Below, one piece after another: positions 1,428 to 15,762 of a DNA stretch of 44,239 nt. Origin of the DNA: Prosthecobacter sp. (GTDB lineage Bacteria > Verrucomicrobiota > Verrucomicrobiia > Verrucomicrobiales > Verrucomicrobiaceae); assembly GCF_029946185.1 (NCBI RefSeq), contig NZ_JAQSEA010000126.1, forward strand, positions 2,881-47,119, read 5' to 3'. Both the position numbers and the translations under genes were made by a program. The notes below the pieces were generated by a model. That model was not told the origin of the DNA, did not search any database, and was given only the letters and a program-made list of their open reading frames with translations. The first letter of the stretch is position 1; the number at the start of each line of letters is the position of its first letter.

Positions 1428-3794
1428 ATGCTCACCCCCCTCGATTTAAAACTCTTCCGCGATCTCGGTCGCATGAAGGGCCAGATCGTCGCGGTGAGTC
1501 TCGTGATGGCCTGCGGGCTGGCGATGATGATCATGACGCGCAGCATCGTGCTGACTCTGGAAAGCACGCGGGATGCCTACTACCAGCGCTACCGTCTGGC
1601 GGATGTCTTTGCCTCATTAAAACGAGCACCGCTCTCGCTGGCCGAACGCGTGGCGGAGATTCCCGGCGTGGCTGCGGTGGATGCGCGTGTCGTAGTCGAT
1701 GCCACGCTCGATCTCGTGGGCATGACGGAGCCAGCGACCGCGCATCTGGTTTCGATCCCGAAAGGTCGGCCACAAACACTCAACCAAGTCTTCATACGCC
1801 AAGGCCGGCTGCCGTTGCCCGATGAACGACGGCAGGCCGTGGTGAGTGAATCTTTCGCGCTGGCGAACAAACTGCAAATTGGCGACAGCCTGATCGCCAT
1901 CATCAACGGGCACCGCGACATCATCATCATCTGCGGCCTCGGCCTCTCGCCTGAGTTTGTCTTCGAGGCGCGGCCCGGTCAGACCCTGCCGGACAACAAA
2001 CGTTACGGCGTCTTCTGGATGAATTACGAATCCATCGCCGTCCCCTACGATCTCGACGGTGCGTTCAATGACCTCTGCGTCGACCTTTCGCCCGGGGCGC
2101 AGTCTGGACCGGTGATGGCGGAGATTGACCGCCTGCTGCTTGGCTACGGTGCGCAGGGAGCCTACACCCGGCGCGAGCACAACAGCGCGCAACGGCTGGA
2201 TGACGAACTGCGCGTCGTGCGTGCGCTGTCCGTGGCCTATCCCGTGGTCTTTCTCAGTGTGGCGGCCTTCATGGTGAATGCAGTGCTGGCGCGGCTGGTG
2301 CGCCTGCAGCGGGAACAGATCGCGCAACTTAAGGCCCTGGGCTATTCCTCGTGGCAGGTGGGCCGACACTACCTGAACTATGCGCTGGTCATTGTCGTGC
2401 TGGGCACCCTGATCGGCGGTGTCGTGGGTCGATGGATGGGCGGCGGACTGGTCAGCATTTACGATCTTTTTTTCCGCTTTCCCGCACTGAACTTCCGCAT
2501 GGATTACAGCGCCTTGGGCATCGCTTTGGTCGTCAGCACCGTGGCCTCATTTTTTGGCGTCATCAGTGTCGTCTGGATGGCCGTCAAACTGCCGCCCGCC
2601 GAGGCCATGCGGCCTGAACCACCAGCGGACTTCAAGCCTTCGATGCTTGAGCGCATGGGCCTCACCCGTGGCAGCAGTCCCGCGCTGCGCATGGCCTTGA
2701 GAAACATCGAGCGTCGTCCCGTGCAGGCTCTGTTCACGGTGTTCGGTCTCTCCTTGGCCACGGGGCTGATGGTGCTGCCCGGCTCCATGGCGGACAGCAT
2801 CGACTACATGCTGACCTATCAATGGAACGATGTGCAGCGGCAGGATGTGGTCGCGTTTTTCGCCGAGCCCAGTTCTGGCGATGCGCTGCACAATCTGGAG
2901 CAGTTGCCTGGTGTGCAGCGCGCCGAGCCCGTGCGTGCCGTTCAAGCGCGCCTCCACTACGGCCACCACTCGCGCAAGATCGCTGTGACAGGTCTGCCGC
3001 GTGATGCCGACCTGAACCGCCTGCTGGATGCGCAACGCCGCCTCATCGTGCTGCCTGAGGAAGGCATCGTCATGTCCGCGCAGCTCGGCAAAATACTCGG
3101 CGCGAGCATCGGTGATGTCGTTCAGGTGGAGGCGCTCGAAGGCAGGCGCGAAACCGTGGGTGTTCCCATCCGCGGTTTCATGGAGGACTTCGCCGGCATC
3201 TCCGCCTTCATGGACATCAACGCGCTGCACCGCCTCATGCGTGAAGGTGACACCGTCAGCGGAGCCTACATGACCGTGGATCAAGCCCGCTGGAGTGATT
3301 TCATGCGCGCAGTGAAGGACACGCCGCGCATCGCCATCACACTGGTGAAGCAGGACCAGCTCGATTCCTTCCGCAGCACCACCGGCCAGAGCATCGGCAT
3401 CCTGCGCAAGCTCTACCTCGTGCTCGCCGTCGTCGTGGCCTTTGGCGTCGTCTATAACAGCGCCCGCATCGCGCTCTCCGAACGCAGCCGTGACCTTGCC
3501 ACCCTCCGCGTCGTCGGCTTCACCCAACGCGAAGTCGCCGGCGTGCTGCTCGGAGAGCTGCTGCTGCTCATCTGCACCGCCATCCCCGCAGGTCTCTTAT
3601 TTGGCAAAGGCCTGGCCACCTTCATCATTGCCAAAGTCAGTACCGAAACCATCCGCATGCCCCTGGTCATCAGCCTGCACACCTACACCATGGCCGTCCT
3701 CGTCGTCGCAGCCGCCTCCTGCGCCTCCTTCCTCGTCGTCAGCCGCATGCTGCGGAAGCTGGACATGGTCGGCGTGCTGAAGGCGAGGGATTGA
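1428..3794 (+). CDS. ABC transporter permease with two FtsX-like domains
   Basis: A 788-residue inner-membrane protein with the duplicated MacB/FtsX-type permease layout. There is an N-terminal transmembrane segment (about 18-42), a large periplasmic region (about 43-265) and three membrane segments (about 268-395). A second set follows: a segment near 433-452, a periplasmic region, and three segments in about 660-780. Proteins of this build work with a LolD/MacB/DevA-type ATPase, usually encoded next door with an HlyD-type adaptor, in export of or mechanical work on envelope substrates. No ATPase domain is present in the protein and none is encoded adjacent. The nearest candidate is the orphan ATPase at 28059-28811, 24 kb away on the other strand. 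The ATG has no clear ribosome-binding site; a TATAAT lies 48 bases upstream. Substrate unknown. Confidence 0.88.
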   Translation: MLTPLDLKLFRDLGRMKGQIVAVSLVMACGLAMMIMTRSIVLTLESTRDAYYQRYRLADVFASLKRAPLSLAERVAEIPGVAAVDARVVVDATLDLVGMTEPATAHLVSIPKGRPQTLNQVFIRQGRLPLPDERRQAVVSESFALANKLQIGDSLIAIINGHRDIIIICGLGLSPEFVFEARPGQTLPDNKRYGVFWMNYESIAVPYDLDGAFNDLCVDLSPGAQSGPVMAEIDRLLLGYGAQGAYTRREHNSAQRLDDELRVVRALSVAYPVVFLSVAAFMVNAVLARLVRLQREQIAQLKALGYSSWQVGRHYLNYALVIVVLGTLIGGVVGRWMGGGLVSIYDLFFRFPALNFRMDYSALGIALVVSTVASFFGVISVVWMAVKLPPAEAMRPEPPADFKPSMLERMGLTRGSSPALRMALRNIERRPVQALFTVFGLSLATGLMVLPGSMADSIDYMLTYQWNDVQRQDVVAFFAEPSSGDALHNLEQLPGVQRAEPVRAVQARLHYGHHSRKIAVTGLPRDADLNRLLDAQRRLIVLPEEGIVMSAQLGKILGASIGDVVQVEALEGRRETVGVPIRGFMEDFAGISAFMDINALHRLMREGDTVSGAYMTVDQARWSDFMRAVKDTPRIAITLVKQDQLDSFRSTTGQSIGILRKLYLVLAVVVAFGVVYNSARIALSERSRDLATLRVVGFTQREVAGVLLGELLLLICTAIPAGLLFGKGLATFIIAKVSTETIRMPLVISLHTYTMAVLVVAAASCASFLVVSRMLRKLDMVGVLKARD

Positions 3795-6348: not shown

Positions 6349-7773
6349 TTACTGCACGTGCCGCTTCGCCTTCGATCCGCCACCTTTCCAGATGTCATAT
6401 TTCGGATCGGCATAGCGATTGAAGAACACATCGAGTTGCTTGGCCAGATCCGCCTTGATCTCTTGCGTGCCGGGCTGGCCGTATTGATTGAAGCGTTCCT
6501 GCGGATCGGTCTGCATGTCGTAGAGTTCGTAGGGGCCGGAGGGAAAGCGGGCGACGTATTTCCAGCGGTCAGTACGGATGGCGCGGGTGGTTTCCATTTC
6601 GTAGAAGACGGTGCTGTCCCAGTTTGCGAGGGGCTGGCCGCGCAGGGCAGGGGAGAAGTCGCGGCCCGGGGACTTCGGCTGCTGCGGCATTTTGTCGCTG
6701 AGGCTGAGCTGAGCGAGGACGCTGGGCATGAAGTCGTAGTTGCTCACGAAGGCGTCGCAGGTCTGCGCGGGCGGGATGGTGCCGGGCTGGCGGAAGATAA
6801 GCGGGATCTGCATCATCAGCTCATGCGCGCCGATGGGACGGAAGTGATCGCCCATGCCCCACATGCCGTTCTGGCCGCCCATCCAGCCCTGATCGCTGGA
6901 ATACACGACGAGGGTGTTGTCATTGAGCCCGTTGGCTTTGAGTGCGGCCATGATCTCGCCTACGCCATCATCCACGCCGCTGACTTCGCTGGCCATGCGG
7001 CGGCGGGCGGCGTCGGTGTTGTGAAAGGCTTTGTTGTCATGCTGCCAGGGGTGCATGGCATCGCGCGGGAAGGAGTGCAGCGGCTTGTCCGCGTAGTAGG
7101 CCGCGTGGCGGTTTTTGGACTCATTCGACATCAGTTTTCCGAGTGAGTAGGGGCCGTTGTAGGCGAGGTAGAGGAAGAAGGGCTGGTCCTTGTTCGCGGC
7201 GATGAACTCCACGCCCTTGCGCGTCCAGAAGTCTGTGGTGTAGCCGGGTTCCACGCGGAGCTGGCCGTTTTCGATGACCTGCTGGTCGTAGAACTCCTGC
7301 GTGCTGCCGTCGGGCTTGGTGGTCCAAGTGGTGAAGCCTTCGCTCGGTGTCATGTTTGCGCCCAGGTGCCATTTCCCACTGAGACCGCAGGTGTAGCCGG
7401 ACTTTTGTAGCACCTCGCCCAAGGAGGTGAACTCCTGCAGTGTGTTGCAGGCCTCCGGCCCCATCATGAACTTGGGATCGAGGAAGGAATGCAGGCCGTG
7501 CTGGGATGGGAGCAGCCCCGTCAGAAACGTCGCCCGCGTGGGCGAACACACGGGGTTGCTGCTCAGCGCATGCGTGAAGCGGACGCCCTCCGCCGCGAGC
7601 CGGTCGATGTGCGGCGTGCGGATGTCCGGGTTCCCGTAGCAGCCCAGCGTCCAGGCACCTTGGTTGTCGGTGAGGATGAAGACGAGATTGCGTGAGCGCG
7701 GTGCGGCGGTTGCTGAGGCTAGGCTGGCAAGCCAGAGGGCGAGAAAACAGAGATGCTTCAGGGCGGGAAACAT
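6349..7773 (-). CDS. Secreted type I (formylglycine) sulfatase
   Basis: A 474-residue arylsulfatase-type enzyme that hydrolyses sulfate esters, probably on carbohydrates. Residues 1-23 are a signal peptide ending TATA. The metal-site motif near the start is LTDNQG (Asp36-Asn37), where many family members have two Asp. The sulfatase signature CSPTR has its formylglycine-precursor Cys at residue 76 and Arg at 80, followed by TGLLPSQHG. Later blocks SGKWHLG and YSSDQGWMGGQNGMWG carry the usual Lys/His and Asp ligands. The enzyme needs a maturase (FGE or anSME), not encoded here. The gene stands alone: convergent with a lipoprotein gene and separated by 376 bases from the M48-like gene. Length fits the family. 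The exact substrate cannot be told from the sequence. Confidence 0.95.
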   Translation of the reverse strand: MFPALKHLCFLALWLASLASATAAPRSRNLVFILTDNQGAWTLGCYGNPDIRTPHIDRLAAEGVRFTHALSSNPVCSPTRATFLTGLLPSQHGLHSFLDPKFMMGPEACNTLQEFTSLGEVLQKSGYTCGLSGKWHLGANMTPSEGFTTWTTKPDGSTQEFYDQQVIENGQLRVEPGYTTDFWTRKGVEFIAANKDQPFFLYLAYNGPYSLGKLMSNESKNRHAAYYADKPLHSFPRDAMHPWQHDNKAFHNTDAARRRMASEVSGVDDGVGEIMAALKANGLNDNTLVVYSSDQGWMGGQNGMWGMGDHFRPIGAHELMMQIPLIFRQPGTIPPAQTCDAFVSNYDFMPSVLAQLSLSDKMPQQPKSPGRDFSPALRGQPLANWDSTVFYEMETTRAIRTDRWKYVARFPSGPYELYDMQTDPQERFNQYGQPGTQEIKADLAKQLDVFFNRYADPKYDIWKGGGSKAKRHVQ

Positions 7774-8149: not shown

Positions 8150-10492
8150 ATGGCTCTCGGTGCCGCTTTCGGGCTCTTTAGATCTTTCATGCCTGCCCCC
8201 CCAGTCTCCCAGCAATTGCCCGACACGCCAGTGCGCATCGCACCGTGGCGCTGGCCGTTGCAGTTTGGGCTTCTGATTTTGTCCGGCGCTTGCACGCTGG
8301 TTCTGTTGCTCTGCTACCTCCTGCTGGTGCTGGGTTTGCTGCTGTGGATGGGCTGGGAGGTCTGGCGGCTCACCGGTCACAAGGTTTGGAGCGACTTGCT
8401 GCATTGGAGCATGGCTGCTGAGTTGCTAAAGTTCCTCTTCATGGGCGTGACCTGGGTGTTCATGCTCCGGCCTCTGCTTCCCCGGCCAAAGCGCGCTCAG
8501 GTGGCGGTGCAGGTCAGTGTGGCTACGCAGCCGCAGCTCTTTGAGATCATCGACCTGCTCTGCTGGCATCTTCGTGCGCAGCCGCCGGTGCAGGTCTGGC
8601 TGGACTGCACGACCAGTGTGCGCAGCTCCATGCTGGGCGGTTTGAGCGGCATCCTCAGCGGGCAGACGGTGCTGCATCTTGGCCTGCCGGTGGTGTCCGT
8701 CATCACCTCGCGCGAGCTCGGGGGCCTGCTGGCTCAGGAGCTCAGCCACAATGCTGGCTGGATCGGCACTCCCTTGGTGCATGTGGTGAGGGAGATGAAT
8801 GCCTGGTTTTTCCGCGCAGCACTGGATCGCGACCCGTGGGAGGTGTATACGGATGTGAAGCCGCAGCGCAAGCCCGAGTGGCACCACCTGAGTCGCAGGC
8901 TCATGCGCGGCTGGATGTGGGCGGCCAAATTTCCCTTCATGGTCTTTGCGCTTGCCGCCAGGCTGGTCAGCGTGGTCACGCTGTGGTTCATCCGGCGCTC
9001 GGCAGCACGCTGTGGTGTCAATGTCATCGGCAAAGACATGTACCGGCGCATGCAGCACAAGCTAGACCTGCTCACCGGGGCATGGGAGGCGGCACAGCAG
9101 GAGATTCAACAAGGCATCATCCAGCATCACCTGCCGGAAAATCTCTCGCTGCTCATGGCGCGCCATGTCGCTACGGAGGCAAAGGACCGCGCCTCAGCAC
9201 GTGCGGAAGCGGCTGCGGCCAGTACCGAGCCGAAAAGCACTGGCGAAAGCAGGACGGGCGCAGGCGAAACCGCCAAGGGGGCAGCCATTGTTGCCCATCT
9301 GTCCCACTTGCAGCCTTCGGCCGCGCTGTTGCGGCAGTTTGTCGATCTCTCGCGGCAGGTCAGTTATTTCTACTATCAGCACGGGCTGGGATTGAACCTG
9401 CACGAGCACAGCATGGTGGCGGATGAGGAGGTCATTCATCAAAACCGGAGCGAGGAAGAGGCTCTGCTCGTCATTCGCCGTTACTTCGGCGGGCTCGCGC
9501 ACCCGGAGCGCGCGATGTGCGGACTGGGCAGCACGCCGACCACCTCCGTGGCGCTGCCGGAACTACAGCGCGAAATCCTGCGCGTGAGGGTGGAGATCAT
9601 CGCCTGGGGGCCGCAGTTCAAGGTGGCCCTGCAGGAGTGGAACCTCGCATGGCAGCGCCGACGCGATCTTGAAGCCGCCACCACGCTGAGCATTGCGGGT
9701 TTCACCGTCTCGCGCATGCAGTTTGGCACCCAAGACTCCACCCCCGGCTCCCTTCGTGAAGAGGCCTCCTGCCAACGCAGGGTCATGGAGCACATGGAGG
9801 GCCCGCTACAGGAGCGTGAGCGCGTGCTGGAGCGCCGCTTTGCCGCAGCACTCGGCCTGCTCTGGTGGAGCGAGTCCGCAGACCTCAGCGAGTGGCTGCG
9901 CGTGCGCCGCCGTGATCTCCCCGCCTGGGTCACGATCTATGAAGCGATGAGCGGCGCACTGCCCTGCTTTCGCGAGCTGCTCACTACTTTTTTTGCCTTT
10001 CAGACCCTCAATGCAAAGTTTGCGAATGTGGATGATCCCAGTGCTTTCCTCACTGCGCTGCAGTCCGTCGTTCCGAAGATGCTCAATCTCCTGCGCCAGA
10101 TTATGGCTACCATGGATGGAGCGCCGTTTCCCTTCACGGATGGTCGGAGGACCGTCACCCTGAACCATCATCTCATGCCTGGTCCGATTCCGGAGATGCC
10201 GGGTGTTTCGATGACACTGGTGGATGCCGCCAGCATGCGGGGCATCGGCATGCAGATGGCTTCGCGGGCCTCCGAATGCATCTCGCCGTACGTGGAAACC
10301 TTTCTGAGCCATTACCACCGCTCCTTTGCCTGGCTGGCAGAATCTGCCGAACGCACGGAGACGCACTTTTTGGGCTCGCTCAATTACGGTTCCACCACAG
10401 AGATCCTCCTGCCCGATGAGTTCACCACCCAGCGCCTCGGCATGAAGTCCCGTTCGCCCGATACCATCGCCGCATGGAAGCCTCCGGCCTAA
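8150..10492 (+). CDS. M48-like membrane protein with degenerate active site (predicted pseudoprotease)
   Basis: A 780-residue protein. The N-terminal 300 residues follow the plan of M48 (HtpX/Ste24-type) membrane metallopeptidases. There are hydrophobic segments at about 37-70 and 88-108, then a helix-strand block ending in the segment where HExxH is expected, then another hydrophobic segment (about 257-281). The zinc motif reads QELSH (residues 196-200), so the first His is Gln. The downstream ExxxD region that supplies the third ligand is also absent: the aligned stretch is RRSAARCGVN. Hydrolysis is therefore unlikely. The remaining 480 residues are mostly helical and soluble, with no recognised domain. 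The start ATG follows an AT-rich leader. It is followed after 98 bases by a gene for a double pseudokinase on the same strand, and the two probably form a unit. Confidence 0.8.
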   Translation: MALGAAFGLFRSFMPAPPVSQQLPDTPVRIAPWRWPLQFGLLILSGACTLVLLLCYLLLVLGLLLWMGWEVWRLTGHKVWSDLLHWSMAAELLKFLFMGVTWVFMLRPLLPRPKRAQVAVQVSVATQPQLFEIIDLLCWHLRAQPPVQVWLDCTTSVRSSMLGGLSGILSGQTVLHLGLPVVSVITSRELGGLLAQELSHNAGWIGTPLVHVVREMNAWFFRAALDRDPWEVYTDVKPQRKPEWHHLSRRLMRGWMWAAKFPFMVFALAARLVSVVTLWFIRRSAARCGVNVIGKDMYRRMQHKLDLLTGAWEAAQQEIQQGIIQHHLPENLSLLMARHVATEAKDRASARAEAAAASTEPKSTGESRTGAGETAKGAAIVAHLSHLQPSAALLRQFVDLSRQVSYFYYQHGLGLNLHEHSMVADEEVIHQNRSEEEALLVIRRYFGGLAHPERAMCGLGSTPTTSVALPELQREILRVRVEIIAWGPQFKVALQEWNLAWQRRRDLEAATTLSIAGFTVSRMQFGTQDSTPGSLREEASCQRRVMEHMEGPLQERERVLERRFAAALGLLWWSESADLSEWLRVRRRDLPAWVTIYEAMSGALPCFRELLTTFFAFQTLNAKFANVDDPSAFLTALQSVVPKMLNLLRQIMATMDGAPFPFTDGRRTVTLNHHLMPGPIPEMPGVSMTLVDAASMRGIGMQMASRASECISPYVETFLSHYHRSFAWLAESAERTETHFLGSLNYGSTTEILLPDEFTTQRLGMKSRSPDTIAAWKPPA

Positions 10493-10590
10493 GGCTGAGA
10501 CGAAAACACTTTATCTTCCGAGGAAACGCTGGCTTGAACATCTGTCGCATGGCAGGATAGTCCAGCATCCCTCCCCCCACAGCGCCCCCC

Positions 10591-12888
10591 ATGTCGGAGC
10601 CGAGTTTATTCAGGCATTATCAAATCGTTCAAGACGCCGACGGCAACAACGTCGAGCTGGTTCGTAATTCCGAGCAGGTGGCGGTCTTGGCGTTTGATCT
10701 GCAGCGGTTGGAATACGTGCACTGCCACGTGCTGCTGGAACCTCTGGAGAACCGCGCTGAATTTGAAGAGTCCTGCCAAACGCTGCAAAAGCGCGGCCAC
10801 CCGGCGCTGGTGCGCATGATCGAGTTTGGCGAGGATGAGGGAAATCCTTTCTACATCACCAGCAACGTGGATGGCGAGGCCCTGCGGCCCTACCTCGCCC
10901 GGCTGCAGGACATTCCCGGATGGCTCGCCATCATGATCGCCACCCGTGCGCTGGAGACCGCCGTGGCGCTGTGTGAGCGCGGCGAGTTCCTTTCAGAGAC
11001 TCCTCTCGACAGCCTGCGCATTGTGCAGACAGCGCCGCAGGCCGTGCAGGTGCTGGCGGCTGATTTTCGCGTGATCGACACCAGCGCTGGCAAAAAGCGC
11101 GCGCTGAAGGCCAGCTTTGAAAAACAGGCCAAATTCCTGCGCACCTTTCTCGTGGAGCAGGGTGGCACGCTGCCGGACCATGCCGTCGCGGTAGCGGATT
11201 TCGCCGAGCTCCTCGGTGCCTGCCTCTCCAGCGCGGGTGTCGGTGTCATTGCCGCCATGCGCGAGCTGCGCACCAGCCTGCAAAAGCTCGCGCCTCAGCA
11301 GCTCTCTGGGGAGATCCCCACAGCGCAGAAGCCTCGCGCCCTGCTCGCCCCGCTGCTGGCTGGTTATCAGGATGTGGCACGCGGCCTGGTCAATCTCGTG
11401 CGAATTCAGAGCCAGCGCCTCGACATGGCCAATCCCTACAGCATGCGCGGCACGCTCACCAAGACGGGACGTTCTGTGCTCATCGAGCAGGTGCCGCCCG
11501 CACGGATCTCTCATGTGAGTGTGAAGGAGGCCGATGACTCCGCCTTCAAGATCACCAAACAGCGCGACAATCCCAGCCTCATCACCCTCGCGCTCGTCAA
11601 TGAGTCCGACGACATCACCTGCCTCGCGGAGGAAGTTGCCGAGGGCATCAGCCTTGCTGAACTCATGCGTGAGCGCCACTGCCTGGAAGTGCAGGAGGCC
11701 TACCTCGTGCTTGCCGGGCTCGACACCGCGCTTACACAGCTGGATAAATCCACGCTGCCCGCCTGCAAACTGCGGTTGGAGGACATTTTTCTGCTCACCG
11801 GATTCGCCCGGGAGGACTCGCGCAGCACCAAGCTGCTCGTCTCCAAGCTCAATGAGTGGCCCGCCTTTAACATCATCGTGCGTGCGCATCCCACGCTCGC
11901 CTCCATGTCCGGGAGAGGCACAGACCCGGGTGTGCTGCTGCCACCTGAGCACGGCACCAGAGCCACTGCATGGCATGGCGGCTGGCTCGCCGCGTTATGC
12001 AAGTTTCTACTTGGCTTTGAGCCTCCTCTTGGCATTCACACTGAACCCATGGGCGGCGCGCGTGAACGTGAAACCGTCGCGCGACTTCTGGATGAGGAGA
12101 TCGCCAAGGTGGCCGATGCCAAGCCTGCGCAACGCAGCGACTTTCTTGCCCGCTATGCGCGAATCATCCAGCATTACGACCACGTCAAACCGAACGAGCC
12201 CGCCCGCGCAGGAGGCGCGGAATCTGCGATGGAGCACAAATTGAAGCCACGTCTCCAACCCATTCCTGCCAGCAAAGCCCCCTTAAAGAGTGGAATGTCA
12301 GCATCGTTGGGCGTCGATTCTCCCCGCTCACCTGGGGCCCCCCTCACCTCCGGTGGTGCGGCCAAGGGCGGAGAAAAGCCGACCATTGGCTTCGCGGAAC
12401 TGCTCTTCCGCAATGGCGGCAGCGAACCTTCACCGCCAGACGCCCCCGACTGGGCAGTTGCCGCCGCCAGTGCAACCACCGCGCTGCCTGCGCATCTCAT
12501 GGTGCGCGAGGACGTCCCAATTTGGCTCAAGGCCGCCGTGTTTCTCAGCGGTTCCATGGTCATCGGTGCCATGTGCGCCCACCTCTCAGGCTCCGCCCTC
12601 TGGCAGAAAAAGAATGTACCCGCTCCTGTGGAAGCCGTGGCCCCACCTCAGTCCGCCGCCATTGTGGCACCTTCTTCCAAACCCACGCCTGCAGCAGTGC
12701 CTAAAGCTATTGCCGTGGAACCGGCCGTGCCCAAGGCCATCCCCGTGCCGCCACCCCCAGTGGAGGTCACCGCTCCGCCGGAAAGCAGTGACACACGTGG
12801 CAGCGGTCTCCCCCTCACACTGCCGCCTGGAGCCATGAACTTGCGCGACCAGCTTTCCAATCCTCCCGCGCCACCGCCACGGCCATGA
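10591..12888 (+). CDS. Tandem pseudokinase with C-terminal membrane anchor
   Basis: A 765-residue protein in which I see two degenerate Ser/Thr-kinase-like modules. Module 1 (about 8-235) has a readable N-lobe: a helix like alpha-C (RAEFEESCQTL), then GHPALVRMIEFGED and a hinge-like strand (FYITSNVDGEAL). It lacks VAIK Lys, HRD and DFG. Module 2 (about 283-485) has the hinge-like CLAEEVAEGISLAELM, an alpha-E-like helix, a PPE where APE is expected (451-453) and GGWLAALCKFLLGFEPP, matching the helix-F stretch DVYALG..LYELLTG.PP. Again there is no catalytic Asp or Lys. A Pro/Ala-rich linker, a transmembrane segment (about 646-666) and a Pro/Val-rich tail follow, so the kinase-like part should be cytoplasmic and the tail periplasmic. 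It is co-directional with the M48-like gene. No phosphotransfer activity expected; a scaffold or sensor role is inference. Confidence 0.72.
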   Translation: MSEPSLFRHYQIVQDADGNNVELVRNSEQVAVLAFDLQRLEYVHCHVLLEPLENRAEFEESCQTLQKRGHPALVRMIEFGEDEGNPFYITSNVDGEALRPYLARLQDIPGWLAIMIATRALETAVALCERGEFLSETPLDSLRIVQTAPQAVQVLAADFRVIDTSAGKKRALKASFEKQAKFLRTFLVEQGGTLPDHAVAVADFAELLGACLSSAGVGVIAAMRELRTSLQKLAPQQLSGEIPTAQKPRALLAPLLAGYQDVARGLVNLVRIQSQRLDMANPYSMRGTLTKTGRSVLIEQVPPARISHVSVKEADDSAFKITKQRDNPSLITLALVNESDDITCLAEEVAEGISLAELMRERHCLEVQEAYLVLAGLDTALTQLDKSTLPACKLRLEDIFLLTGFAREDSRSTKLLVSKLNEWPAFNIIVRAHPTLASMSGRGTDPGVLLPPEHGTRATAWHGGWLAALCKFLLGFEPPLGIHTEPMGGARERETVARLLDEEIAKVADAKPAQRSDFLARYARIIQHYDHVKPNEPARAGGAESAMEHKLKPRLQPIPASKAPLKSGMSASLGVDSPRSPGAPLTSGGAAKGGEKPTIGFAELLFRNGGSEPSPPDAPDWAVAAASATTALPAHLMVREDVPIWLKAAVFLSGSMVIGAMCAHLSGSALWQKKNVPAPVEAVAPPQSAAIVAPSSKPTPAAVPKAIAVEPAVPKAIPVPPPPVEVTAPPESSDTRGSGLPLTLPPGAMNLRDQLSNPPAPPPRP

Positions 12889-12967
12889 AAACACTGCTTC
12901 GTCGCTGCTCGGGTCGCCAGCCCTGAACCCACCGTCAACGGCGCCATCGCCCAGGAACGATCTTTGA

Positions 12968-14074
12968 TCAGTCTCGCAAGGAGATCACTCGCGAACCCTC
13001 TCTGGCGGAAGTCAGGCATGCATCCAGCACTCGCTGCGTCAGCAGGCTGATCTTGGGCCAGTGAGCATCCAATTTCTCATCAATCACTAGTTGGGAAAAT
13101 GTGTGAAACAGGCGTGACTCCTGCGAGCCGGGCGCGTTGCTGCTGGGTTCATCGAGGGCTTCGATCTGCCGGCTTTCGAGCATGTGGGACTGGCAGCGAT
13201 CAAGCGCGAACTCCGAACGCGTGAGGCTGAATTTTGTTTGCGGGCCGGAGAAGGGCAGCACAAAGTCGGAAACCTGCAGCAGTCCTTTGTCACCGTTCAC
13301 GATGGCCCACTGCGCATTCGCTGTGGTGAAGGAGCAGTAGAAGGATGCGCTGGCGCTATCGGCAAAGCTCAGCGTGCCGGAGAATTCCAGAGGGACAGGC
13401 GGTGAATCCGACGTTTGCTGCGTTTGCGTGTGGATGCGGCCCGTTGCATGCGTGGGCGTGGCTTCGTTCATGGCCCAGAGTGTGAAGCGCAGGCAGTACC
13501 ATCCCAGATCTCCGAGGCAGCCCAGCGGTTCGAGTTTGCCATGCGCACGGATGTTACTGCGTTGGAATTCGTCATCGCTCATGAAGCTGAACTGCGTGGC
13601 GATGTTTCGCACCTGGCCGACATCATGATCCACCACCTCGCGCAGGCGTTTCAGCCGTCGCCCGTGCATGAACATCACTCCGTCCATGAACTGCACGCCG
13701 TGCTGCTCACAGGTGGCGATGATCTCCGCCACATCTGCCGCATTCACGCCCACCGGCTTCTCCACCAGTACATGTTTGCCGGCCTGCGCCGCGCTGATCA
13801 CCCACTCCTTGCGCAGTCCTGTGGGGAGCGGGATGTACACCGCGTCGATGTCCGTGCGGGCCAGCAGTGCTGTGTAGTCATCCATCGCATCCGGGACGGT
13901 CTCATGCGGTGCGCTGCTCTGGCATTCGTCAATAAAAGCCTGTGCGCGTGAGAGATCACGGCTGGCTACGGCGATGAGCGTGGCGTTGTCCGCATCACGA
14001 ATGGCCTGCCAGTTTTTGCGAGCGATGAAAGCGGCACCCAGGATGCCCCAGCGGCAGTGCTTGTGATTGGTCAT
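12968..14074 (-). CDS. Gfo/Idh/MocA-family NAD(P)-dependent oxidoreductase
   Basis: A 368-residue enzyme with the N-terminal Rossmann fold of the glucose-fructose oxidoreductase family. It has the dinucleotide motif WGILGAAFIA (residues 9-18), an acidic or polar strand end AVASRD, and the family hallmark EKPVG (105-109), whose Lys is catalytic. The C-terminal half is the usual beta-sheet substrate domain. These enzymes oxidise or reduce sugars, inositols or related polyols; trans-dihydrodiol dehydrogenase-type members look alike, and the substrate is not readable here. The frame is open from a GTG at 14098, but the ATG at 14074 sits just before the Rossmann strand and gives the usual length. 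It is convergent with the pseudokinase gene and downstream of the DUF3147-like gene (36 bases), probably in one transcript with it. Confidence 0.93.
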   Translation of the reverse strand: MTNHKHCRWGILGAAFIARKNWQAIRDADNATLIAVASRDLSRAQAFIDECQSSAPHETVPDAMDDYTALLARTDIDAVYIPLPTGLRKEWVISAAQAGKHVLVEKPVGVNAADVAEIIATCEQHGVQFMDGVMFMHGRRLKRLREVVDHDVGQVRNIATQFSFMSDDEFQRSNIRAHGKLEPLGCLGDLGWYCLRFTLWAMNEATPTHATGRIHTQTQQTSDSPPVPLEFSGTLSFADSASASFYCSFTTANAQWAIVNGDKGLLQVSDFVLPFSGPQTKFSLTRSEFALDRCQSHMLESRQIEALDEPSSNAPGSQESRLFHTFSQLVIDEKLDAHWPKISLLTQRVLDACLTSAREGSRVISLRD

Positions 14075-14571: not shown

Positions 14572-15762
14572 TTAATGCTTCTTTTGCGCCGTGCCGCCTT
14601 TTGCTGGCGCAGGTTTCTCGCTGCAACGTGGCACGATGAACACGACAAGCATGAGAATGATAGCCACTGCGGCGACCACCATGGGCTTGATGTTTTTCGC
14701 TGCAGGAGTTGGCGGTTTGCGCTGCAGAGGTGTGGAATTTTTGCGCTGTGCGGGCATCAGGGCCGCTGTGGGGCGCTTGGGCCTGTTGGCGGCCAAATGG
14801 GGGCCGGGCGAAATGGGAATGGTGCTTGAAGTAGCATTTCGTGCGCCTTGCTGCCGATGGGGAAGAACAACGGGAGAAGAAAGCGGCTGCTGGAGAAAGG
14901 GGACTGTCGGCGTGGCTTGGGCGGTTTCAGGCGAGGGCTCCTGGCGTGGCGGCAGTTCCGGCAGGTTGGGGGCTTCACGGCGCTCGAACAACTCCCGGGC
15001 CGCCGCCGCCTTGCGTGGACGTTGTTCAGGGTCCGCCGCCATCAGGTGCATCACCCAGGAGCACATCCAAGCCGGGACATGCGAGGCGATTTTCTGCAAC
15101 GGGGCCAAGTCATGGCCGAGGTGCTTTAGCTTCAGTTCCTTGAGTGTGCGACTGCCAAAGGGAGGTCTTGTGGTGAGTGATTCATAGAGGATGCAGCCCA
15201 GCGCATAAACGTCAGTGCGACGACGGGTGGTGCCGTCCTGCCACTGCTCTGGGGCGGTGCAGCGGTAGGCGCGGATCTGCTCCTCCTTGCTGTCTGTCCG
15301 ACCTGCGAAGCCCTGGCCAAAGCCATGCAGCGTCACCTGCCAGTCAGCGGCGGATTTGCCGGAGATACGTACAAAATCAGGCCGCAGGCTGCCATGGACG
15401 ATGGCGTCCTCGTGGAGGATTGAAACCACCTCAAGGAGCTGCGAGGCCACGGTTTCAAATTCCTTTTGCGTGAGCGGTCCGCGTTCCAGCACTTCGCTCA
15501 AGGTTTCTCCCGGCAGCGGACCTGCAACAATGGTGTAGAAGCCGTCCTTGTCGGTGCCGAAATCGATCAGCCGATCGAGATGCGGATTTTCCAAGGTGGC
15601 AAGCTGGCGGAACAATTCCTGCAGGCCCTCGATTTCCTCGGGCTTGGTGGTTTTGAAACGCCGCAGCCGGAGTTCGTCGCCGCGTTTGTTGTCGCGGACG
15701 AGCAATAGCTTGCTGGCGGTGTCCTCTTCCAAGGGACGCAGAATTTCAAAACGGGATGACAT
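14572..15762 (-). CDS. Membrane-anchored pseudokinase (Ser/Thr-kinase fold)
   Basis: A 396-residue protein with one kinase-like domain (about 4-262), a Pro/Gln-rich linker and a transmembrane segment (about 360-377) near the C-terminus. The fold is clear. It has an alpha-C/beta-4 stretch ending NPHLDRLIDFG, an APE motif as APEQW (170-174), and TDVYALGCILYESLTTRPPF with the structural Asp184. The catalytic parts are lost. The beta-3 Lys position reads LRLRRF, HRDxKxxN reads HGSLRPDF (123-130), removing the catalytic Asp, and DFG reads HGFG (146-149). Kinase activity is therefore very unlikely. It shares the N-lobe pattern HP-x-L-x-R-x-I-(D/E)-F-G with the tandem pseudokinase at 10591-12888, suggesting a common origin. 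It is divergent from potA over an 88-base gap. Role unknown; probably binds partners or nucleotide. Confidence 0.87.
   Translation of the reverse strand: MSSRFEILRPLEEDTASKLLLVRDNKRGDELRLRRFKTTKPEEIEGLQELFRQLATLENPHLDRLIDFGTDKDGFYTIVAGPLPGETLSEVLERGPLTQKEFETVASQLLEVVSILHEDAIVHGSLRPDFVRISGKSAADWQVTLHGFGQGFAGRTDSKEEQIRAYRCTAPEQWQDGTTRRRTDVYALGCILYESLTTRPPFGSRTLKELKLKHLGHDLAPLQKIASHVPAWMCSWVMHLMAADPEQRPRKAAAARELFERREAPNLPELPPRQEPSPETAQATPTVPFLQQPLSSPVVLPHRQQGARNATSSTIPISPGPHLAANRPKRPTAALMPAQRKNSTPLQRKPPTPAAKNIKPMVVAAVAIILMLVVFIVPRCSEKPAPAKGGTAQKKH

Follow-up and report, generated by a model that had tools for sequence, protein, structure and literature searches.

Two neighboring genes of a Prosthecobacter sp. 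each appear to encode an enzyme that has lost its catalytic residues, which raises the question of whether their products make up one non-catalytic machine or are conserved independently of one another. The genes lie in a 44,239-nucleotide stretch of contig NZ_JAQSEA010000126.1, hereafter the window, and a sequence-only reading of this DNA had proposed that the pair forms a membrane signaling or assembly unit. The two genes are:

8150 to 10492, plus strand: gene A, 780 amino acids, a predicted inactive M48-derived membrane protein
10591 to 12888, plus strand: gene B, 765 amino acids, a predicted tandem pseudokinase with a C-terminal membrane anchor and a proline-rich tail

We asked what gene A encodes. 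Translation probably starts at Met14, at about position 8189, because the residues before Met14 are poorly conserved and two relatives (L006 and L061) carry a stop codon just ahead of the conserved start. A hydropathy scan found hydrophobic segments at residues 35-72, 88-106 and 258-276. At E values up to 1 the protein matched nothing in Pfam or NCBIfam, searches of PDB sequences with the protein and with its profile returned chance-level matches only, and its AlphaFold model, made from an alignment of nine close rows only, had a pLDDT of 39.6. Its ancestry was read from six active-type relatives (L105-L110) that are 25-29% identical to A, all six of which carry HEFGH or HELGH together with the third-ligand Glu. 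Both of the relatives that were scanned match Peptidase_M48 (PF01435; E 2.3e-11 and 2.2e-13), a family of metallopeptidases of the HtpX/Ste24 type. Descent of A from M48 metallopeptidases is well supported at the level of profiles, because a profile-profile alignment of A with these six relatives in hhalign gave a probability of 100 and an E value of 1.9e-46 over 638 columns.

The zinc site of this lineage can be followed at two places in gene A:

8735 to 8749, plus strand: QELSH, a degraded HExxH zinc motif (residues 196-200)
8993 to 8995, plus strand: Arg282, in the third zinc ligand column, which holds Glu in active-type relatives

Across 28 A orthologs the first His column holds Arg in 12, Gln in eight, His in six, Gly in one and Tyr in one, and the second His of HExxH is present in half (14/28), while the Glu of the motif is found in every one. 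In the third-ligand column Glu occurs in two orthologs, neither of which has any His of the motif, and Asp in three, none of which has both His residues; all six orthologs with HELSH are without the third ligand. A complete zinc site was found in none of the 28 orthologs and in none of nine further A-family proteins, taken from other genera or from second copies (37 proteins examined). The sequence-only reading had reported QELSH in place of HExxH and loss of the third ligand, and both were seen, with Arg in the Glu column. It had also held that homologs with an intact HExxH would speak against it; such homologs exist, as the six with HELSH, but not one of the 28 has the full site. These six orthologs suggest that the third ligand may have been lost first, and since such intermediates are still extant the steps by which a metallopeptidase lineage came to be without its zinc site are traceable.

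Gene B was examined for the two kinase-like modules, membrane anchor and tail that had been attributed to it. The parts are as follows:

10612 to 11310, plus strand: predicted pseudokinase domain 1, about residues 8-240, with His46 in place of the beta3 Lys, no HRD and Asp158 at the DFG position
11362 to 12186, plus strand: predicted pseudokinase domain 2, residues 258-532, with Glu299 in place of the beta3 Lys and neither HRD nor DFG
12514 to 12570, plus strand: predicted transmembrane segment, residues 642-660, from hydropathy and conserved in orthologs

Against Pfam and NCBIfam the full protein matched kinase models below threshold only (PF00069, E 0.098; NF033483, E 0.011). The predicted structure of residues 1-545, made with 32 alignment rows, had a pLDDT of 85.2 and a pTM of 0.87, and the fold comparison, which covers domain 2 and not domain 1, returned Staphylococcus aureus PknB (4eqm_D) as the best match to domain 2 (Z 15.9, rmsd 3.8, 231 residues). 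Domain 2 is thus, as modeled, a kinase fold. Domain 1 is kinase-like on the strength of its model, in which strands and helices follow one another as in kinases, with a pLDDT of at least 87 in 20 of 24 ten-residue blocks, and of its profile matches. Searched against the PDB, the domain 1 profile found 20 sequences at E values up to 10, every one a protein kinase, with StkP as the best sequence match (E 7.4e-4, residues 55-233), and it matched a kinase-like family with E 1.2e-5 and probability 81. NF033483, the NCBIfam PknB model, was matched weakly by eight of 12 domain 1 rows at E values up to 1, and the Pfam kinase family by none of the 12 members. The confident double kinase fold that had been put forward as a check was largely obtained, and the anchor and tail also stand, the former at residues 642-660 by hydropathy and the latter a proline-rich stretch after it. 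The same scan also marks residues 204-223, which the model places in a helix of domain 1. Of three B orthologs from other genera that were scanned, two have five Sel1 repeats, and none were found in the third or in the window protein. No PASTA match was found in the window B at E values up to 1 or in the three orthologs at E values up to 0.5. If B is oriented as PknB-type kinases are, its kinase domains would be cytoplasmic and its tail periplasmic.

The catalytic motifs of B, with positions assigned by eye in the alignment, were compared in 14 sequences of the protein, which represent 10 genera. In place of the beta3 Lys, domain 1 has His (Arg in one sequence) and domain 2 has Glu, HRD is absent from both domains and a complete DFG is absent throughout, with domain 1 keeping its Asp; this residue, Asp158, is invariant across 32 aligned rows. 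The claim of two modules without Lys, HRD or DFG is thereby borne out apart from the Asp retained at the DFG position of domain 1. As judged from the alignments, the pseudoenzyme families of A and B are real and conserved, and their catalytic residues have been lost. We consider it unlikely that one or both proteins retain a non-canonical activity, be it nucleotide binding or transfer by B or, in the HELSH orthologs of A, peptidase activity with a substitute ligand. The Glu kept by all A orthologs, the six HELSH motifs and the Asp in the third-ligand column of three others would fit such an activity, as would the invariant Asp158 of B and a DLHPSN loop found in domain 2 of two of three aligned members of c7, a second tandem group with mostly 22-30% identity to B. 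Polyglutamylation by a bacterial pseudokinase is also in print, going by a title among the references of PMC11266112. However, not one of the 37 A-family proteins has all three ligands, and across 10 genera both domains of B have lost the beta3 Lys and HRD, and the complete DFG as well.

We next considered whether the two genes are in use. Against relatives of the clade in which A and B are neighbors, dN/dS was 0.12-0.21 for A (eight relatives) and 0.11-0.15 for B (seven relatives), and against more distant relatives it was 0.23-0.30 for A (three usable pairs) and 0.25-0.29 for B (three pairs). Within A, constraint is strongest at residues 386-660 (0.08) and not in the former zinc region (0.19 for residues 111-300); within B, it acts on both kinase domains and on the anchor (0.04-0.09). 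Because these ratios are low, as under purifying selection, both proteins are probably in use. That A and B are decaying pseudogenes is a reading to which we give hardly any credence, and as a candidate it was ruled out by dN/dS: A is indeed broken or missing in several genomes, but long open frames persist in most, dN/dS stays at 0.11-0.21 against close relatives and B is present in 63 of the 68 family genomes.

If both proteins are in use, are they used together? B lies on the same strand as A and begins 98 bases on, counted from the stop codon of A to the ATG of B, exactly as first described. Of 48 Prosthecobacter genomes, 14 have A and B as neighbors on the same contig and strand. The genes are separated by 81-104 bases (counting the stop codon) in 12 of these and by about 1.5 kb in G021 and G012; adjacency was undecided in G011, G013 and G015, where contigs end. 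Two loci carry an opposite-strand gene between A and B, which encodes a protein of about 440 residues (L140, 8594-9922; L137, 1383-2699). A tree of 42 B proteins, which left out G058 and G040 and included 13 of the 14 adjacent genomes, placed all 13 in one clade of 17 with support of 100/97. The same clade holds the three undecided genomes and G045, in which A and B are on different contigs. The recurrent adjacency that had been named as support was found in part: it does recur in 14 of 48 genomes, but the 13 of these placed in the tree all belong to this one clade of Prosthecobacter. Conservation of the pair in other genera was considered and rejected, as the B profile hits no called gene at A-family loci there.

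Within the genus, A and B are both present yet apart in G018, G019, G037, G016 and G041, and the B profile had no match among the called genes of the A loci of these five genomes (L111-L115). Conversely, the A profile had no match among the called genes of eleven B loci (L116-L126), seven of which come from genomes that bear A. B is present and A unmatched in six genomes (G003, G007, G009, G010, G014 and G055), and A is fragmentary in G006 and G059. In G060 and G013 the frame of A is interrupted where that of B is open, with assembly errors possible for both.

The gap between A and B also contains a sequence, TTGAACAT...GGATAGT, which begins 57 bases upstream of B:

10534 to 10561, plus strand: promoter-like element TTGAAC-16-GATAGT, recognized by conservation and position

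The pattern of this element was found upstream of B in 17 of 42 B loci, one of which (L172) is outside the clade and may be a chance match; L153 and L162 were omitted from the scan, as their upstream DNA is lacking. G021 and G012 have the element before B despite the opposite-strand gene between A and B, and G040 has it with no A-profile hit in the 10 kb before B. In other clades the sequences upstream of B are, by eye, similar to one another and different from this one. A strict sigma-70 scan of the A-B gap found no promoter and no terminator, and the element is thus promoter-like by conservation and position only. We conclude that the conserved upstream element belongs to B and is retained where A is not adjacent.

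Since A and B are neighbors in one branch of the genus only, they probably do not form a fixed two-part machine. The single unit proposed by the sequence-only reading is weakened by the distribution of the genes, by gene order and by the upstream element, which moves with B, and an obligate A-B pair was ruled out on the same grounds together with the broken copies of A and the tree. Also rather improbable is a single non-catalytic membrane complex of A and B that either persists where the genes are apart or is replaced there by B with another partner. Such a complex would agree with the shared strand and the 81-104 base gap kept in 12 genomes, which would also fit co-expression, with the lack of a promoter between the genes by the strict scan and with the fact that both are membrane proteins of inactive enzyme ancestry. 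It sits poorly with the genomes that have B and no A match or a fragmented or interrupted A, with the five in which both genes are present and separated and with an upstream element of B's own. Nothing that we found requires A and B to act jointly.

The two genes also differ in how widely they occur. B matches were found in 47 of 48 Prosthecobacter genomes, of which 45 read as B itself; G017 has a paralog-type match only and G053 a weak partial one. Matches to the B profile above 500 bits occur in 63 of 68 Verrucomicrobiaceae genomes, the exceptions being G017, G022, G053, G061 and G079, and the other families of the order gave only weaker, partial matches. The B genes of L148, L153 and L177 are 67-85% identical to the window B, and the Akkermansia muciniphila labels of these metagenome bins look wrong. 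A matches were found in 37 of 48 genomes in the genus search, some of them fragments or distant paralogs. With a profile of 19 orthologs, A-family proteins were found in 46 of the 68 family genomes and in six of 11 Verrucomicrobiaceae genera. Of 239 genomes sampled from the order, 52 had matches, and the few of these that came from other families were weaker or partial. In the window a sulfatase gene (6349-7773, minus strand) is divergent from A. G041 keeps A divergent from a sulfatase gene of the same cluster with B elsewhere, and the link between A and the sulfatase gene is therefore independent of B.

A double pseudokinase with a membrane anchor that is present family-wide, small genomes included, would be expected to do an important non-catalytic job, and B is the more interesting of the two. 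We therefore looked at its other neighbors. In 16 Prosthecobacter genomes B is followed by a gene for a putative lipoprotein, which is about 185 residues long and begins, as judged by eye, with a lipobox-like sequence. In the 14 of these genomes whose junctions were compared, the ATG of this gene overlaps the B stop codon as ATGA; the coordinates of L127 and L129 agree. The window retains a trace of it:

12886 to 12902, plus strand: remnant of the lipoprotein gene at the B stop codon, 17 bases identical to the start of the gene in L136

The remnant stretch has also been given as 12886-12968 of the window. A tblastn search of the window genome found no copy of the lipoprotein gene, and since the gene has been lost there it is not indispensable.

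In other genera, genes of one family lie 3' of B on the same strand at a distance of 152-292 bases in seven of 14 loci and five of nine genera sampled. Trypsin_2 and PDZ domains were found in the one member scanned, which is thus HtrA-like. Three of these seven loci have a guaA-type gene before B (one scanned). No HtrA-type gene adjoins B in the other seven of the 14 loci. HtrA-like genes are found in all 48 Prosthecobacter genomes, and in each of the 45 that bear B the best hit is off B's contig. Given its absence beside B in half of the loci and its place on other contigs in Prosthecobacter, the association is possibly an old chance neighborhood. Taken together, the lipoprotein and HtrA links favor an envelope role for B, which we infer from gene neighborhood.

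Other genes were observed near B. A secretin gene is found in L121, L122, L128 and L130 (two of the four scanned), and the corresponding stretch of the window holds an FtsX-type gene (1428-3791) and an IS200-type transposase gene (184-1335). The window has a third kinase-like gene (14572-15762, minus strand; kinase match E 3.3e-17) with a hydrophobic C-terminal segment, in which HGS replaces HRD and HGFG replaces DFG, as is also the case in three relatives.

From these observations we suggest, as the better supported reading and with some confidence, that A and B are pseudoenzymes conserved independently of each other, which have come to be neighbors in one Prosthecobacter clade: A is an inactive M48 protein apart from B, and B serves the envelope as a non-catalytic membrane adaptor. 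In this role B would span the inner membrane: on the cytoplasmic side its two kinase folds may bind partner proteins, and its periplasmic tail may hold or report on envelope proteins such as an HtrA protease or the adjacent lipoprotein. A would be a separate non-catalytic membrane protein, for example a scaffold or substrate binder.

Of three members of the tandem group c7 that were scanned, one falls just short of the Pkinase cut-off of 31.7 bits in domain 2, with 31.2 bits, and the others scored 22.1 and 10.9 bits. A hydrophobic segment was seen by eye in the c7 genes at 8613-11108 of L131 and 8110-10713 of L133, each directly before two tubulin-type genes, and the window genome has a copy at 2-2179 of L135, minus strand. 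The tubulin-type genes of L131 match PF00091 and PF03953 and are followed by a TPR gene, an arrangement that fits the published btubA-btubB-bklc operon (PMC5372463); the text of that article does not contain the word kinase. Across 34 tubulin-bearing genomes, c7 adjoins the tubulin genes in 19 (by position) and is apart or on another contig in 13, counted without regard to contig ends, with no match in G005 and an undecided case in G056. Four genomes (G000, G003, G006 and G043) have c7 without a Tubulin_C match, and in G000, the window genome, c7 lies at a contig end. A broader proposal, which we put forward as speculative and doubtful, is that the double pseudokinases of the Verrucomicrobiaceae are a family of membrane-anchored, non-catalytic adaptors, of which B would serve envelope quality control, through HtrA and the lipoprotein, and c7 would anchor or position bacterial microtubules at the membrane. 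In Prosthecobacter, c7 could be tested as a candidate partner of bacterial microtubules at the membrane.

How do A and B compare with known systems? A literature search on Verrucomicrobia or tandem pseudokinases, M48 pseudoproteases and Prosthecobacter tubulin did not find these genes named among the matches listed, with subscription journals mostly outside its scope. A resembles M48 metallopeptidases in its homology to Prosthecobacter proteins that carry the zinc site, in its membrane segments and in the Glu of HExxH, and differs from them in that its family has no full zinc site and the window protein no Pfam match. For B, the PASTA kinases PknB, StkP and Stk1 are close in fold and sequence, with PknB the best fold match and StkP the best sequence match, and they share a membrane helix, whereas B has no PASTA domain, has lost the catalytic motifs and carries its domains in tandem. 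Bacterial pseudokinases are, according to PMC12599244, largely unexplored by experiment, and seven families are described there, which include ActPs1, ActPs2, ActPs3, GLW and CP1; its main text has no words beginning with Verrucomicrob, Planctomyc or tandem. Going by their descriptions, these families share the lost motifs with B, and ActPs2 proteins commonly have a C-terminal membrane helix, as do many of ActPs3. ActPs1-3 differ in being mainly actinobacterial. EssB/YukC, the transmembrane pseudokinase of type VII secretion, is also like B in its kinase fold, three degraded motifs and membrane helix, as the same text describes it (PMC12599244), and the secretin gene near B in some relatives belongs to a kind of secretion system other than type VII. 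Unlike EssB/YukC, B combines two pseudokinase domains with a proline-rich or Sel1 tail.
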